Below, one piece after another: positions 9,435 through 48,543 of a stretch of 48,757 nucleotides of DNA. The notes below the pieces were generated by a model. The model was given only the letters and a program-made list of their open reading frames with translations, was not told where the DNA came from and ran no database searches. The stretch spans positions 1-48,757 of the forward strand of contig NZ_VMNH01000014.1 in NCBI RefSeq assembly GCF_007625115.1, given 5' to 3'. The position numbers and the translations under genes were made by a program. The first letter of the stretch is position 1, and each line of letters opens with the position of its first letter. The stretch comes from Sedimenticola selenatireducens (GTDB taxonomy: Bacteria > Pseudomonadota > Gammaproteobacteria > Chromatiales > Chromatiaceae).

Positions 9435-10505
9435 TTACCGGCTAACAACACCCATTTCGTGCCCTTCTCCACGTATCGTGATTTCACCCAGTACAGTTAG
9501 GGTTTGCTGATCAAGCACCCAAATCTTGGGGGATTTTCGACTTGAGACATAGACCTTTCCAGTACCCCGGACTGTTGTGATGTGATATGGCGCTGGGGAT
9601 AATGTAAGCGACTTCATCTCACCACTCGCCAAATTGTAGGCAACCACCTTGTCATCTTTCTTACTAGACGCATAAAGCAGTCGGCCGTCATCCGACAGGT
9701 CTACCCCATGGGGGTCAGCTCCAACGGTAAAAAGAGTTTTTACCGCTGCACTATCAATATCAACTTGAGACACAGTACCACTTGATGGGTTGGCGGCGTA
9801 TAGCAGGCGCTCATCTGGAGAAAGCACTAAATGCTCTGGCGTTTTTCCCGCAGGCAAATTCCGAAGTACGGTCCAGCTCTGGGTGTCTATTTCACTTATA
9901 TTTCCATCACCTGCATTGCTTACGTAAATACGACTACCATCCCGCTTAGATACAATATAATTCGGTGTAACCCCGGTAGGTAATTCCTTGAGCAATTGTT
10001 TGCCTGGAATATCGACTACACTAATACTTCCTCGCCCTGGGTGAGTAAATATCGCAAAGCGACCATCAGGAGTAATCAAAGCATGATGTATGGCTCCTGG
10101 TACATCGATTTGGCGTAACAGTTGTTGAGTTTTTACATCTATTAGATAGGCAGTGCCTACCATTTCAGCTTGGCTACTCTTCTCTGGGCCCGGTTTACTT
10201 TGGTTACTGTGGTGGGCGGCATGATCCTCTTCTGACATTTCCTGCGGTTTAGGTGGAGCAGCCCCTTTGGGGCGTTCCAGTAAACTCCCAGCTAGTAGTA
10301 ATTCTCCATCCATTGATACAGCTAACCCGTGACTGGCATTAATACCAGGTATCTCTGATATGACCTTATTGGTATCGGCATTGATCACGGCAATTGCATT
10401 AGCGCTACCTAGGGGAACATAGACTTCGGTGCCAGCGAAAAGGGTCAAAGGTAATAGCGTCAATAAGCCTAGGCAATAGACTTTTACACATTTTTTGTTA
10501 TGCAT
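9435..10505 (-). CDS. Secreted YncE-like beta-propeller protein
   Basis: A 356-residue exported protein. I chose the ATG at 10505 because a GGAG lies upstream and a signal peptide follows directly (VKVYCLGLLTLLPLTLFAG); an upstream in-frame start would add 29 residues without signal character. The mature protein has six to seven propeller blades of the form DGRLLYASS ... VVAYNLASG, SPDERLLYAANPSSGTVSQVD and DGSRIYVSNAGDGNISEID. A His/Glu/Lys insert near residue 95 (EEDHAAHHSNQ) may bind metal. YncE-type propellers are structural or binding proteins without a known enzymatic activity. It lies just upstream of the CopL-like gene in the same direction. Confidence 0.88.
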   Translation of the reverse strand: MHNKKCVKVYCLGLLTLLPLTLFAGTEVYVPLGSANAIAVINADTNKVISEIPGINASHGLAVSMDGELLLAGSLLERPKGAAPPKPQEMSEEDHAAHHSNQSKPGPEKSSQAEMVGTAYLIDVKTQQLLRQIDVPGAIHHALITPDGRFAIFTHPGRGSISVVDIPGKQLLKELPTGVTPNYIVSKRDGSRIYVSNAGDGNISEIDTQSWTVLRNLPAGKTPEHLVLSPDERLLYAANPSSGTVSQVDIDSAAVKTLFTVGADPHGVDLSDDGRLLYASSKKDDKVVAYNLASGEMKSLTLSPAPYHITTVRGTGKVYVSSRKSPKIWVLDQQTLTVLGEITIRGEGHEMGVVSR

Positions 10506-10588
10506 TAACAATCTCCAGTAAAATAGTATTGGTTTTTCATCCAGTGTCGATCCATGTATAGGAGCGAAGGTAAAAACAGGAGGCTCAA

Positions 10589-10720
10589 TCATCGTCTAAG
10601 CAACGTTATGACAAATCCAACGAGTGCAATTGCCACAATGACCCAGACGATTAAGCCAGCCCAGCTTGCCCCAGGATGGAACGGAATCCAGCCAGCTGAA
10701 TAAAACCCTTCGTGCATCAT
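10589..10720 (-). CDS. Tiny single-helix membrane protein
   Basis: A 43-residue protein starting MMHEGFYSAGWIPFHPG and ending with one transmembrane helix (WAGLIVWVIVAIALVGFVITLL) and RR. The ATG at 10720 has a GAGGG about ten bases upstream; a longer frame starts at 10771 without a good site. The N-terminal Met/His residues and the helix resemble the first half of SHOCT-type proteins near copper genes, but no SHOCT domain follows. It precedes the propeller gene by 83 bp. Function unknown. Confidence 0.6.
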   Translation of the reverse strand: MMHEGFYSAGWIPFHPGASWAGLIVWVIVAIALVGFVITLLRR

Positions 10721-11702: not shown

Positions 11703-13163
11703 CTATTTCTGTGGCAAATATTTCCTGATACCTTCTACCATCTGCTGTGCAGAGATTCCATGTGCGAACTTGGTGATAAACTCCCCATCAGGTGCCATCA
11801 GAAAAACACTAGAAGAGTGATCCATGGTGTAAAGATTAGGATCACCTCCTTCAGGCAATACTTTCTCATACTTGACTTTGAATTGCTCCGCCACACGCCC
11901 AATCATAGCTACCGTACCCGTTAGGCCAACAAGATCCTTGTTAAAGTACTCCACATAATTGCTCATGACTTTTGCATTGTCGCGTTCTGGATCTATGGTG
12001 ATAAAATACGGTTTGAGGAAGGTCGCTTTATCGCCTAGCATATCCAAGGCTAAAGACATTACCTGCAATGATGTTGGACAGATGTCTGGGCAAAAGGTAT
12101 AGCCAAAATAAATCAGCTGATATTTTCCTTGCAAATCTTTTTCAGTGACCAAGTTACCTTTGTGGTCAATGAGCATGAATTTACCACCAATACTAAGTGC
12201 TGCCGGTATATCTTGATTCTTAGTAATGATTTTTTCAGATTTCCCACTATATTGAAGACATTGTTTTATTGTATCCGTATTATCTTTCATTAATTCAAAA
12301 TAAAGGTCAGGCCCAGGATTTAACTTTGTTCCGAAACTATCGAGTTGGCCGATATTTATACTAATACCTTCCGTTAATAATGGCAGCTCTGGCATGGGCA
12401 TCCCATACTCTGTTAGCAGGCAAGTATAATATCCCTCTTTGAGCTTAACCCGGCTTAGCAGTAACTTGCTGGCCTGAATAGGGGTTTCTGGTGACTGAGT
12501 CATCACTTCCCTAATTTTAAGTGCATAAGCCTGCTCAAAATATTGGAGTGTATCATAGTAGGTCATTCCAATTCCGCTTTTCAGTCCCCGGTATCCATAC
12601 TCAAGCTGCCTATCCAGTTCAGCTACTCTGGCGAGTACTTTTCCGCGGTTTCTACGATAAAGATGAGCTCTTCCTGCATCGACTTCCATTAGTATTTTGG
12701 CGAGTTCATCAACCAAAATTAGGGTATTACGGCTATCCATCCATATGTAAGGATCACGCGATAATGCTTTCTCATCCTTGGTCCAACGTGAAGGTAAAAC
12801 CTTTATCTGAATATTATCAAGTAAAGTGAAAACCTGAACACCCGCCTTCCTTGCAACTTCTACAGGTTCTATCATAAATCGTTCCAGCTCTGGTCCAATC
12901 CAGATAATCACATCGGCTGCTGAAATATCAGCATTTTGCTTTTCACTTAGGAAATATCCGAATGGTATAGCATCACTATTAACAAGTAGTTCAGGCCCCT
13001 CTGTTCCGTCCATCAGTCCGGCAAGAATCGAATGGATCGGCTTGATGGTAGTAATTACTCGAAATGAGTTTTCCGCATAGATAAGAGGACTATTCAGCAT
13101 GAAGATCATGCTTGCCAGTACGGCAAGATAATGAAGTGGGAAATAACTAATTCTCGTATTCAA
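11703..13163 (-). CDS. ZnuA-like domain fused to SCO1/SenC thioredoxin domain
   Basis: A 486-residue exported protein. After a signal peptide (to about residue 30) the first 290 residues follow the metal ABC transporter substrate-binding fold (FRVITTIKPIHSILAGLMDG, SAADVIIWIGPELE, then GQLDSFG near the end). The C-terminal part (from about 320) is a SCO1/SenC domain with the copper-site cysteines in FCPDICP (about 358-362) and the ligand His in MDHSSSVFLM (about 448). The ZnuA half lacks the histidines expected in its family: PH is replaced in AIPFGYF, DPHIWMD by DPYIWMD, and the third site reads TYYDTLQYF. SCO proteins deliver copper to, or reduce, the CuA site of cytochrome oxidase. The fusion suggests a copper-delivery or thiol protein with a binding-protein platform. 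It is the last gene of the minus-strand group and follows a small secreted protein by 24 bp. Confidence 0.9.
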   Translation of the reverse strand: MNTRISYFPLHYLAVLASMIFMLNSPLIYAENSFRVITTIKPIHSILAGLMDGTEGPELLVNSDAIPFGYFLSEKQNADISAADVIIWIGPELERFMIEPVEVARKAGVQVFTLLDNIQIKVLPSRWTKDEKALSRDPYIWMDSRNTLILVDELAKILMEVDAGRAHLYRRNRGKVLARVAELDRQLEYGYRGLKSGIGMTYYDTLQYFEQAYALKIREVMTQSPETPIQASKLLLSRVKLKEGYYTCLLTEYGMPMPELPLLTEGISINIGQLDSFGTKLNPGPDLYFELMKDNTDTIKQCLQYSGKSEKIITKNQDIPAALSIGGKFMLIDHKGNLVTEKDLQGKYQLIYFGYTFCPDICPTSLQVMSLALDMLGDKATFLKPYFITIDPERDNAKVMSNYVEYFNKDLVGLTGTVAMIGRVAEQFKVKYEKVLPEGGDPNLYTMDHSSSVFLMAPDGEFITKFAHGISAQQMVEGIRKYLPQK

Positions 13164-13187: not shown

Positions 13188-13538
13188 TTATTTTTGTTGG
13201 TACTTGAAAGCCCTATCCAGGGCAATGATAGCTTGATCAACGTCTATGCTAAGCCGATCTTCAGCAGGACAACTAGACTTCTGCTCGATGAATTTGAGAA
13301 ATGCAGTATTTGTCTCCGTATCAAATGCCTCACCAAACTGGCGGATTTTTGGAAGCGCTGCTACCAGCGCCTTTTTCATTCGCTGAGTCTCGTTCAGATA
13401 GCGACAATTTAGTGCAATGCCATTTAGATCACCCATTTTTTTTATCACGCTGTACTGCTGCTCTGTGATCGATTCTGCATTCACTGTAAAAGTAAAAAGT
13501 AATGCCAGCAAACATGATTTATGCCATTTATATCGCAT
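13188..13538 (-). CDS. Small secreted protein, unknown function
   Basis: A 116-residue protein with a signal peptide (LLALLFTFTVNAES) and a mostly helical mature part containing two cysteines (LNCRYLNE and KSSCPAED), which may form a disulfide. No family recognised. It lies 24 bp upstream of the ZnuA-SCO fusion gene and 117 bp downstream of the dsbA-like gene, so it may be a substrate or partner of these redox proteins. That role is inference. Confidence 0.75.
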   Translation of the reverse strand: MRYKWHKSCLLALLFTFTVNAESITEQQYSVIKKMGDLNGIALNCRYLNETQRMKKALVAALPKIRQFGEAFDTETNTAFLKFIEQKSSCPAEDRLSIDVDQAIIALDRAFKYQQK

Positions 13539-13655: not shown

Positions 13656-14306
13656 TCAATAATTTCTACGGATCTCAGATTCAACCAGTTCTTGGAGTTG
13701 CTTATAACCAAACTTCACAAGCGGCTTGCCGTTAACAAAAAAACCCGGTGTTTTACTGACTTGGAGATTCTTGGCATCTTCAAGATCCTGCTGCACACGC
13801 TCAATAATAATACTATTTGCCATATCCTCTTTTACTTGCGCAATATTGAGTCCAACCTTGCCAATCCGCATCCATAATCTTTCAGGCTGCGGATCTCCAT
13901 GTGCCGCCCATACGGGTTGTGCTGCATATGTCGCATTAAGAGTTTCCCAGAATTTACCCTGCATTTTAGCCGACTCAAGGATCTTCACAACATAATCAGA
14001 TCCTTGATGTAATGGCAAATAGCGCATCACCAGCTTAATCTTACCTGGATTGGAATCCATCAGATTCTTGACAAATGGATGAAACGCTTTACAAGTCTCA
14101 CAAGCAGGATCGAAAAACTCTACAATAGTAACTTTTGCTTCTGCATTGCCAATTGTTGGTGAATAATCTCGAACAAGCAAGGAAGCATTATCCAACGCCT
14201 TTTCTGCCAACTCATTATATACGTTATTATTATAGATAAAAGCTGCGACAACAAAAGTTGCAGTCAATATCCCCCCAGCCATTAGTACAACGTATTTATT
14301 TTTCAT
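13656..14306 (-). CDS. DsbA-like thiol:disulfide oxidoreductase, membrane anchored
   Basis: A 216-residue thioredoxin-fold protein with an N-terminal membrane segment (YVVLMAGGILTATFVVAAFIY) and a periplasmic domain. Active site CETC in VEFFDPACETCKAFHP; the cis-Pro loop is KTPGFFVNG. The ATG at 14306 overlaps the end of the dsbB-like gene, so the two are translationally coupled. The pair resembles the two-gene thiol oxidase modules (BdbC/BdbD-like) in which the DsbB-like partner reoxidises the DsbA-like protein. Its likely role is disulfide formation in periplasmic metal-resistance proteins. Confidence 0.92.
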   Translation of the reverse strand: MKNKYVVLMAGGILTATFVVAAFIYNNNVYNELAEKALDNASLLVRDYSPTIGNAEAKVTIVEFFDPACETCKAFHPFVKNLMDSNPGKIKLVMRYLPLHQGSDYVVKILESAKMQGKFWETLNATYAAQPVWAAHGDPQPERLWMRIGKVGLNIAQVKEDMANSIIIERVQQDLEDAKNLQVSKTPGFFVNGKPLVKFGYKQLQELVESEIRRNY

Positions 14307-14751
14307 CAACGAACCTTTTTTTAAAAACATAGAGCAGCACGACGATAGCCGTGTATGAAAGTATGGAAAGCATTGGTATGGTAATGAAGCCAAGCAATTC
14401 CAAATTAGTATCAGAACAAGATACTCCCTGGCTGCAAGGCTGGAGATCTTCAGGTATATAGCCTAAATAAAGAAGATAATGGTATACCGCAAAACACCAC
14501 CCAATTACTGCCAATGGAAGAGCGTACTGTATGACCTTTTTGTCGAGCGGAAAAAGTCCAATGAGGAAAATAACAACCAGTGGATACATAAATATTCGCT
14601 GATACCAACACAACACGCAAGGCGGAAACCCCATGATCTCACTAAAAAACAAACTACCGAGGGTGGCAACTGATGCTATTAGCCAGCAGAAAAATATCAG
14701 ACCCCAACCGGTCTGACCCAATGAGGTATTATCTGTTGATGATGCTACCAT
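14296..14751 (-). CDS. dsbB: DsbB-family disulfide bond formation protein
   Basis: A 151-residue inner-membrane protein with four helices. It carries both DsbB cysteine pairs: CVLC in PPCVLCWYQRIFMYPL and a periplasmic pair in LQPCSQGVSCSD. It passes electrons from the partner DsbA-like protein to quinone. Its stop lies inside the first codons of that partner. The methyltransferase gene ends 34 bp upstream. It is a short BdbC-like member of the family, different from the housekeeping DsbB expected elsewhere in the chromosome. Confidence 0.93.
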   Translation of the reverse strand: MVASSTDNTSLGQTGWGLIFFCWLIASVATLGSLFFSEIMGFPPCVLCWYQRIFMYPLVVIFLIGLFPLDKKVIQYALPLAVIGWCFAVYHYLLYLGYIPEDLQPCSQGVSCSDTNLELLGFITIPMLSILSYTAIVVLLYVFKKRFVDEK

Positions 14752-28772: not shown

Positions 28773-29522
28773 TCAACATACTGATTTTCCCTCCGACAAG
28801 GGTTCTATACAGAAACAGGAAGGCCGGCGATAATGTCTTTCACTGTAGATTTTCAGCATTTCTTCTATCAGGACTTTGGGGTCAGATTCGTAGACCAGCA
28901 ATGCGCCAGTATCCTTACCTATGCGCCGCACCAAGTCAGGAAGTTCGTCAGTAATACCCCCGCTGCCTTTCAACACGCCAATCAACTTACCCTCGTCATA
29001 GGCAATGGCAAATTCACCCAGGGTTCCGGAACGCCCACCTAGTATGATCACCATATCACTGGACAGGATGTTGGTGACCTCACGCCCCATCAGTCCGCTG
29101 CCGGTATAGATCAGGATGTCGAAGGCATCTGCCGGTGAGTGGTATTTATGGAGATGCTCATCGAGACTCAGGGCGGGCGAGATACCCACCGACAATCCTC
29201 CTCGTGCACGTGCACCGCTGGCGCACTCGTACGGGAGTCCGGGACAGGCACCAGTAATCAGGATCAAGCCATCATTTGCAATCGTTTCGCCCAGAATCCT
29301 GGCACGGTTGGACACCGCTTGATCAGAATCAGAGTCAGCCGAGCCCATGACTCCGACAGTCAAACGTTCAGCACGGGCATTCCCGAGGTATATTTCAGGT
29401 TTGGCAATAAACTTCTGTTTGCAGTTGTCACTGCAAAAGTACCAAGAGCGACCCTTATGCACGGCCATGGCACCGGCCCTCCGCATATCCAGTTCCATCC
29501 CGCAGACAGGATCGTTGATCAT
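28773..29522 (-). CDS. YHS domain - SLOG (LOG/TIGR00725-like) fusion protein
   Basis: A 249-residue protein. Residues 1-47 form a YHS metal-binding domain (INDPVCGMELD ... WYFCSDNCKQKF). Residues about 55-230 form a Rossmann-like SLOG domain: VGVMGSADSDSD, ILITGACPGLPYECASGARARGG, and the hallmark GGRSGTLGEFAIAYDEGK. SLOG/LOG proteins bind or hydrolyse nucleotides. The C-terminus has an extra Cys-rich tail (SCFCIEP). It overlaps the upstream nuclease-like gene by four bases (ATGA), which implies coupled translation. It is the last gene of the five-gene operon from 31469. The YHS domain might gate the SLOG domain by metal; this is inference. Confidence 0.92.
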   Translation of the reverse strand: MINDPVCGMELDMRRAGAMAVHKGRSWYFCSDNCKQKFIAKPEIYLGNARAERLTVGVMGSADSDSDQAVSNRARILGETIANDGLILITGACPGLPYECASGARARGGLSVGISPALSLDEHLHKYHSPADAFDILIYTGSGLMGREVTNILSSDMVIILGGRSGTLGEFAIAYDEGKLIGVLKGSGGITDELPDLVRRIGKDTGALLVYESDPKVLIEEMLKIYSERHYRRPSCFCIEPLSEGKSVC

Positions 29523-46819: not shown

Positions 46820-48487
46820 TCACTGCCTTTTTTCGCGGTGATCAGCGATTAGCAGTTTATACGAAGGAATCACCAGGTCCGGGTAGTCGATCTTCTTCAT
46901 CGCCAGGTCAAGCACACGCAGAGAGTGACCCAGGCCGTAATGGCCGCCCATGCTGTCATCCTTATGACCCATCAGCCGGTTGGCGACCATGACATCAATC
47001 TCAGCCTCCCGCATGGCATCTTTGAAGGTATGCCGGAAGCTATGGAAGGTCTTAAGCTTGCTTCCAACACCGATCCTGCGCCGGTAGCGAGACCACCATT
47101 TGGAAAAATTACCGGTAATATCACCTTTGCAATCCGCCTTGAGTAGCGGAAACAGACGGGTGTGTTTCTCTGCCTTTATCGCTGCAAGATAATCCAAAAA
47201 ACCAGTCTGAATTAGTTGCGGATGCAGGGGGATATTGCGCCGTGCGCTGGGAGATTTAAGTCGCTTCGGATGACTTTGCTTAAGGACGTCATTCTCAATA
47301 ATGTCGGTAATATCCAGATACCAGATTCCCTTCTCTCGTTTCACATCGGTTACGTAAAGTTGGCCCAGTTCTTCAAGTCTCGCGCCGGTAAAGAGTGATA
47401 GCAGCGGTAACCAATAGGCAGCTGCCCCGCCCCCGCCACGCTTCATGCCGCTTTGCTGAAACACCGTTGATGCAAAGAGAGTTTTCAAGTCATCATGTGA
47501 AAGTGGCAATCGCCTAACTTTGTAGACATCCAGCCCCGGCACTTCAATTTCCGAGAACGGATTGCCGGACAGTTTTAGTCGTTTCTTGGCAGCGTTGAAG
47601 ATAGACCGCAGGAAACCGATGTTTTTGGCAATGGTATGCGGATCGTGTTCGCCCTGTTTCAGCAGATTATCGATATACGCGTAAACGCACTCTTCACTAT
47701 AGTCTGAAACCACCTTAGTGCCGGCAAATGAGATGAAGCCTTCAAGGGCAGCCCAGTAAGCCGCAACGGTTTTTTGCGGACGGTTGGCACGCCGGTCTTT
47801 CCACAACTCGAAGCAATCCTTGAGCGTTTTGCCTCTTATACTCCCCGCGCGTCCCTGTGGTACCAGACTCTCAGTTTTCTTGCCAATGCGAATATGGGGG
47901 GCTGGTGGTGTCGCCACTACTTCACCGTGATCCCGTTGCATCACAGCCAGATGGGTATCAATGACGGCTTCCAAAAACGTCCATGCAAGCTTGCGTTGGT
48001 CTTCAGGATCACCGCAAAACTCTACACCGATAAGCGCGAGAAACTGGCTTAAGGCAGGCTGTATTCGCTCCAGACGACCTTTCGCAAGTATCTCTCGAAG
48101 AGATTCGATTGTCTGGGCATGATCAGCCTGACGCTGCTCATACTCATCATCAGTGAATCCTTGTATCCGGTACCAGACATCCCCTTCAAGACACTGATAT
48201 CGCCAGAGATCACAAATACCCCCGACGGTAGCTTCGTCCAGAACTGTGAGTTGTTGGTTCGCTGGTTTGATCGGTTTCTGAATCGTCTCGAATTCAGCAT
48301 CCAACTTGGCTGAAGCTTGGCGCACAAGTCTACTAGCTTCCTGTCGGTCTTTGGTACGCAGGGAGTAAACAATCTCTTTTTTGCCGAAATGAGCCTGGAG
48401 CGGCTTTGGGATCATGGCTCGAAAGTAGTAGGTTGAGCCACGCTTTGAAAGGCGGGTTTGTGTATACATACTTGGCGCTGACTCCAT
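46820..48487 (-). CDS. int: Tyrosine site-specific integrase
   Basis: A 555-residue recombinase. The N-terminal part has the SAM/arm-type start RGSTYYFRAMIPKPLQAHFG (DUF6538-like), then a core-binding domain (about 215-310) and the catalytic domain with R in LFTGARLEELGQL (about 369), H-x-x-R in HSFRHTFKDAM (about 484) and LMGHKDDSMGGHYGLG with the nucleophile Tyr (about 517). I take the ATG at 48487, which has GAGGG eight bases upstream; earlier in-frame starts exist (48493, 48526). It lies about 100 bp from tRNA-Ser and probably inserts the island into the tRNA 3' end. Confidence 0.95.
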   Translation of the reverse strand: MESAPSMYTQTRLSKRGSTYYFRAMIPKPLQAHFGKKEIVYSLRTKDRQEASRLVRQASAKLDAEFETIQKPIKPANQQLTVLDEATVGGICDLWRYQCLEGDVWYRIQGFTDDEYEQRQADHAQTIESLREILAKGRLERIQPALSQFLALIGVEFCGDPEDQRKLAWTFLEAVIDTHLAVMQRDHGEVVATPPAPHIRIGKKTESLVPQGRAGSIRGKTLKDCFELWKDRRANRPQKTVAAYWAALEGFISFAGTKVVSDYSEECVYAYIDNLLKQGEHDPHTIAKNIGFLRSIFNAAKKRLKLSGNPFSEIEVPGLDVYKVRRLPLSHDDLKTLFASTVFQQSGMKRGGGGAAAYWLPLLSLFTGARLEELGQLYVTDVKREKGIWYLDITDIIENDVLKQSHPKRLKSPSARRNIPLHPQLIQTGFLDYLAAIKAEKHTRLFPLLKADCKGDITGNFSKWWSRYRRRIGVGSKLKTFHSFRHTFKDAMREAEIDVMVANRLMGHKDDSMGGHYGLGHSLRVLDLAMKKIDYPDLVIPSYKLLIADHREKRQ

Positions 48488-48543
48488 AGTCATGCCCTCG
48501 CTGATCGTAATGGTTAATCGTAACAATCAGGTATGTATAGCTA

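Follow-up and report, generated by a model that had tools for sequence, protein, structure and literature searches.

Nitrous-oxide reductase (NosZ) destroys the greenhouse gas nitrous oxide, and its Sec-type form is a major biological sink of this gas; we take the Sec-dependent enzymes captured by model TIGR04246 to be those known as clade II. In zinc- and manganese-binding proteins of the ZnuA fold, the metal ligands are three histidines and one aspartate or glutamate. SCO proteins classically serve the CuA centre of cytochrome oxidase (PMC7558416), and NosL serves CuZ (PMC6530538). In P. denitrificans, mutants of senC2, pcuC and Pden_4445 reduce less nitrous oxide when copper is scarce, a defect that copper rescues in the senC2 and Pden_4445 mutants (PMC7558416). 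The nos region of Bacillus azotoformans carries a senC/SCO1 gene upstream of nosC (PMC3475470). In these sources, work on NosZ assembly concerns the TAT-type enzyme.

The window analysed here, a whole stretch of 48,757 nucleotides from Sedimenticola selenatireducens, encodes a ZnuA-like/SCO1 fusion on its minus strand (11703..13163) as a single 486-aa frame with a TTG start. Its N-terminus contains a hydrophobic stretch that, judged by eye, reads as a Sec signal peptide. It is followed by an ex-ZnuA domain (residues 36-302; 12258..13058, minus strand) and a SCO1 domain (residues 326-462; 11778..12188, minus strand) carrying C358, C362 and H449. Both halves score well over their Pfam gathering cut-offs (PF01297, E 4.8e-32, 111.9 versus 29 bits; PF02630, SCO1-SenC, E 4.3e-47, 159.9 versus 22.8 bits), in agreement with the initial annotation, which had described a ZnuA region and an intact SCO domain in one frame. 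The ZnuA half stays below the NCBIfam equivalog cut-offs for AztC (84.2 of 350) and ZnuA (83 of 268), and its closest fold is that of E. coli ZnuA (2osv; Foldseek E 2.4e-18). For the SCO half, the nearest solved relative is Bradyrhizobium ScoI (4wbj; profile match E 8.6e-52, also found by Foldseek). How the domains of the fusion are arranged is not fixed by its AlphaFold model (pLDDT 79.5, pTM 0.58, linker below 50). The SCO site C358/C362/H449 is intact in 18/18 sequences that reach it (20 rows, 2 of which end before the site), a pattern that fits the copper or thiol chemistry proposed earlier for this domain.

The fusion is present in many other genomes, and the idea of an assembly-specific artefact was rejected on this ground. 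Full-length fusions occur in 7/369 genomes of the class sample, with two in the source genome, and one further fusion, cut by a contig end, lies in G208; at most four candidates were scored per genome, so absences are soft. A contig scan of named genomes, in which the loci listed represent 80 of 578 confirmed stretches, yielded family members at L049-L068 among the matches listed. Their hosts are Saanich Inlet Gammaproteobacteria, Sedimenticola, Candidatus Thiodiazotropha, a Ctena symbiont, a Lamellibrachia symbiont and one MAG labelled Alphaproteobacteria; L069-L128 match as ordinary ZnuA-like proteins only. On plasmids, 471 records match part of the fusion and none covers 80% of the query.

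Within the family, we compared 28 ZnuA halves as rows of an alignment, leaving out L055 and L060 (the same loci as L041 and L039) and keeping the close kin L053 and L054. The fusion forms a single ORF in 24 of these rows, and the ZnuA half is free-standing in L041, L043 and L062. In the Lamellibrachia symbiont MAG (L066:9929-11361), the ZnuA half and the SCO domain are two adjacent ORFs before nosZ, either because the gene is really split or because of an error in the sequence. A 57-row tree that also took in 29 ordinary relatives, 20 of them drawn from the 60 loci L069-L128 and 9 others, unites the family in a single clade with support of 100/100 and a stem of 1.34. L041 branches from within the fusions and has therefore become stand-alone secondarily. 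The source genome has three PF01297 genes: the window fusion, a second fusion (L034) that is 70% identical to it, and an ordinary ZnuA (L048), a long branch in the tree, which has the Asp and two of the three His (the second and the third) in place, its first ligand being either misaligned or Glu.

Alignment with ordinary ZnuA-like relatives places the four former ligand positions of the window protein at F68 (AIPFGY; codon 12960..12962), Y139 (DPYIWMD; 12747..12749), Y203 (TYYDTLQYF; 12555..12557) and D275 (GQLDSFG; 12339..12341), all on the minus strand. The full ligand set is thus absent, as the initial annotation had noted in claiming that three His had given way to aromatics with the Asp kept. 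Histidine ligands at shifted positions were considered and rejected, because the His columns of the alignment fall directly on F68, Y139 and Y203. Across the 28 rows, the first position is Y16 F7 L3 Q1 W1, with His in none; the second is F18 Y7 L1 H1 W1; the third is Y12 F8 H5 L2 D1; and the Asp position is D24 N4. Every row keeps at most two of the four ligands. The triple-aromatic pattern holds for the window protein but is not universal in the family, since His persists at the third position in 5/28 rows and at the second in 1/28. A further loss is that of the His-rich segment ahead of the second ligand, with 0-2 His in the 28 family rows versus 3-6 in 5 ordinary rows. His-3 is found in L043, L062 and L067, which belong to the small earliest-splitting branch, in L049 and L057 at other places of the tree, and also in L152 and L154 from another class. 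Its retention in the first-splitting branch and in L152/L154 indicates that His-1 and His-2 were probably lost earlier.

These residues bear on whether the ex-ZnuA half might still bind a metal or small ligand, through the remaining His-3 and Asp, through new residues or at a site of the Fe-Tyr type, and donate metal to the SCO domain. The Asp kept in 24/28 rows would suit such a role, as would the His-3 residues, which occur mainly in branches that are deeper or more diverged, as well as in L152/L154. So would the strong conservation of the His-2 and His-3 loops: positions near the four ligands are modestly more conserved than the rest (0.663 versus 0.581, p 0.009; 27 rows, the near-duplicate L054 being dropped), and the excess stems from these two loops, the His-1 loop lying below average and the Asp loop at average. 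We nonetheless consider metal donation by this half quite improbable, because Tyr and Phe interchange at the three former His positions, Asp is replaced by Asn in 4 rows, the His-rich loop is lost and new metal-type residues could not be pinpointed as a constant set. The free exchange of Tyr and Phe makes a conserved metal-binding hydroxyl unlikely, and an Fe-Tyr site was rejected for the same reason.

Upstream of the window fusion lies a small gene on the same strand (13188..13538, minus) for a 116-aa protein with four predicted helices and two invariant cysteines, as seen by alignment and AlphaFold. A gene of this kind (about 115 codons) stands directly upstream of the fusion or ZnuA half, within 200 bp or overlapping, in 24/28 loci, and it overlaps the downstream gene by 4 bp in 10 loci. 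In L061 the tail of the small gene sits at the contig edge, in G014 and G319 the gene is elsewhere in the genome, and a profile search of the genome of L062 gave no match to the small protein. Two copies on different contigs occur in the Sedimenticola selenatireducens genome of L063. An alignment of 18 sequences has eleven invariant columns, of which two are Cys, and the AlphaFold model (pLDDT 90.6) comprises four helices after a signal-like helix. Searches found the protein to be without a Pfam, NCBIfam or PDB relative: up to E 10, the fold search of the PDB gave 46 matches, none better than E 3.7; the 9 matches of the PDB profile search reached E 0.5 at best; and in Pfam two families were hit at chance level, each by one member of the 18. 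In G319, the small protein and SCO form a single 297-aa protein and the ZnuA half is separate; in G125 and G713, the small gene adjoins SCO and no ZnuA half was seen. Taken together, these three genomes make the small protein and SCO look like the core and the ex-ZnuA half like an addition, which in view of G125 and G713 is dispensable.

Such genomes, along with the loss of the ligands, are what would be expected if the ZnuA half were a decaying passenger on a working SCO protein. The family as a whole makes this very unlikely. The full ZnuA domain is kept in 28/28 rows, and its invariant positions include new ones. In the two fusions of the source genome, the ZnuA halves are 70% identical with a dN of 0.23, the SCO halves have a dN of about 0.13-0.15, and synonymous change is saturated; a formal dS is available for the SCO half only (dN 0.15, dS 2.05; YN00). 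The single clade, the conserved His-2 and His-3 loops and the mostly synonymous divergence of the paralogues support the initial proposal that the domain has been repurposed.

The small gene and the fusion of the window are preceded by genes for a DsbB-like protein (14296..14751, minus strand) and a DsbA-like thioredoxin with a CETC motif (13656..14393, minus strand; its start may be an inner ATG), both assigned by Pfam, so that DsbB, DsbA, small gene and fusion run in one direction in that order. The DsbA is 44% identical to the DsbA adjoining the fusion in L152, where a DsbB-like gene holds the equivalent place, and the four-gene order is repeated in G448, which belongs to another class (fusion 37%, DsbA 44% identical). 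The presence of dedicated disulfide enzymes beside SCO agrees with thiol handling at a CuA-type site. Among ten window neighbours, Pfam found no ABC ATPase or permease. Elsewhere in the window we observed a periplasmic-looking beta-propeller protein (9435-10592) with weak matches to AztD and to a lactonase-type NosZ model, a YHS metal domain joined to a SLOG cluster 4 (LDcluster4) domain (28773-29522), and a phage-type integrase with a DUF6538 domain (46820-48526), a possible end point of a mobile island.

The region 2697-22977 of the window also contains a P-type ATPase, two MerR regulators, CopB, a multicopper oxidase, a cation efflux gene and an RND pump. The window fusion is a second, copper-island copy in its genome, linked with its own DsbA/DsbB pair. 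This setting, together with the recurrence of the DsbB-DsbA-small-fusion order in another class, could mean that the fusion is a general periplasmic SCO protein for copper stress or resistance, dealing with surplus copper or thiol repair, and that any link to NosZ merely follows copper-rich or low-oxygen niches. Among the loci annotated with a fixed set of reference genes, however, copper-resistance genes lie beside the module in the window only, and the distribution across genomes described below runs against this explanation too, which we regard as unlikely.

To follow the module across genomes, we scored its presence by the small-protein profile, with at most 12 candidates per genome, so that absences are soft. 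It is present in 11/369 genomes of the class sample. NosZ (PF18764) occurs in 58/369 of these genomes and in 11/11 with the module (Fisher p 6e-10), and Sec-type NosZ (TIGR04246 over its cut-off) in 21/369 and 10/11, respectively (p 3e-13). The association persists when counted by taxonomic family (p 1e-8; family labels up to f182): 7 families have the module, all of them among the 16 with Sec-type NosZ. Put differently, the module is found in 10/21 genomes with Sec-type NosZ versus 1/37 with the other type, and in 0/311 NosZ-less genomes of the class sample, which is difficult to reconcile with a general role in copper resistance. The one genome that has the module with the other NosZ type only, G208, is 87% complete and in 510 contigs, and its congener G084 has both types. 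In a phylum sample, 4/398 genomes have the module, the source genome included, and the three others all have Sec-type NosZ, as do 7/8 further family genomes chosen for this purpose; no NosZ was found in the genome of L064. Since its relatives occur almost only with Sec-type NosZ, the fusion probably helps to load copper into this enzyme. It is not generally needed for it, given that 11/21 Sec-type NosZ genomes are without the module.

Gene neighbourhoods give a mixed picture. In 6/28, nosZ lies directly downstream (L037, L053, L054, L058, L066 and L068), and other nos genes are nearby in 4/28 (L038, L039, L059 and L065). In G713, the order is nosF-like, nosL-like, nosY-like, small, SCO and cupredoxin, where the nosF and nosY labels derive from gene order and general ABC families; one NosL, at L153, falls below its cut-off. 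A pentapeptide-repeat protein is encoded near the small gene at L037 (L037:8514-9254) and also at L038, L053, L054, L058, L065 and L068. At 14/28 loci, the window included, neither nos nor nir genes appear in the available stretch, in part a consequence of short contigs. In the source genome, nosZ is on contig C22 and the fusions are on C11 and C9, neither copy being near nosZ, and another SCO gene lies about 10 kb from nosZ; a different SCO gene is likewise found inside the nos cluster of G014 and G125. At the remaining four loci (L035, L036, L050 and L056), the neighbours are nirS or the NapC/ethylbenzene-dehydrogenase-like and cupredoxin genes that accompany it. Together with the classical service of SCO proteins to the CuA of cytochrome oxidase, these four loci would fit an assembly factor for that oxidase, for a cupredoxin donor or for a cd1/NapC-type cluster, in which case NosZ would simply accompany the module. 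The direct adjacency of nosZ in six loci and the preference for Sec-type NosZ genomes noted above both argue against this alternative, and we think it rather improbable.

Function is better informed by the small partner and by the association with nitrous-oxide reductase, neither of which the initial annotation mentions, than by the lost ligands. On balance, we favour the reading in which the fusion is a SCO copper/thiol assembly factor for Sec-type NosZ and its ex-ZnuA half a metal-free docking part; with similar, moderate confidence, and by analogy, the module would most likely serve the CuA centre of this enzyme. In such a scheme, the fusion would be periplasmic, with an N-terminal half that derives from a ZnuA-like solute-binding protein and has lost zinc binding, and it would act with the small two-Cys protein in the maturation of Sec-type (clade II) NosZ. 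The SCO half may hold Cu(I) or reduce the cysteines of the target. The ex-ZnuA clamshell, with its aromatic-lined cleft, could dock a partner, be it NosZ, the small protein or a donor; we infer this metal-free docking role from the loss of ligands, the aromatic fill and the conservation of the sequence, and copper delivery and the CuA target are likewise inferred. More tentatively, the whole may be described as a module devoted to the maturation of Sec-type (clade II) NosZ, with the small protein and SCO as its core, a grafted and metal-emptied docking clamshell, and sometimes a DsbA/DsbB pair of its own. As the module tracks Sec-type NosZ across distant bacteria, it offers a named, testable candidate for the copper loading of this enzyme, and it is a clear example of a protein once used for metal uptake that now serves, free of metal, as one component of a copper chaperone.

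Chaperones of the SCO type and ZnuA proteins are both known, and the emptied fusion with its small partner was not found in the literature searched, which was mostly non-subscription; within this coverage, no paper joined ZnuA and SCO1 with nitrous oxide reductase or with the term periplasmic. With ZnuA and AztC (PF01297), the ex-ZnuA half shares the full-length fold (2osv, TM-score by target 0.86) and the two kept Cys, but it differs in being fused to SCO and in having neither the His ligands nor the His-rich loop. In Bacillus azotoformans, a SCO gene likewise lies within the nos cluster, whereas neither a ZnuA half nor a small partner is mentioned in the available part of that report (PMC3475470). 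P. denitrificans SenC2 is, similarly, a SCO protein implicated in NosZ maturation (PMC7558416); it is a separate SCO protein, and its host has a TAT-type NosZ. With ScoI, SenC and SCO1 chaperones in general, the fusion has in common the SCO fold, the CxxxC motif and the distal His, and its SCO half is 42% identical to Bradyrhizobium ScoI (4wbj) in the Foldseek alignment. Unlike these proteins, its SCO domain sits behind a ligand-less ZnuA domain, is paired with a small two-Cys protein and is linked to Sec-type nosZ.
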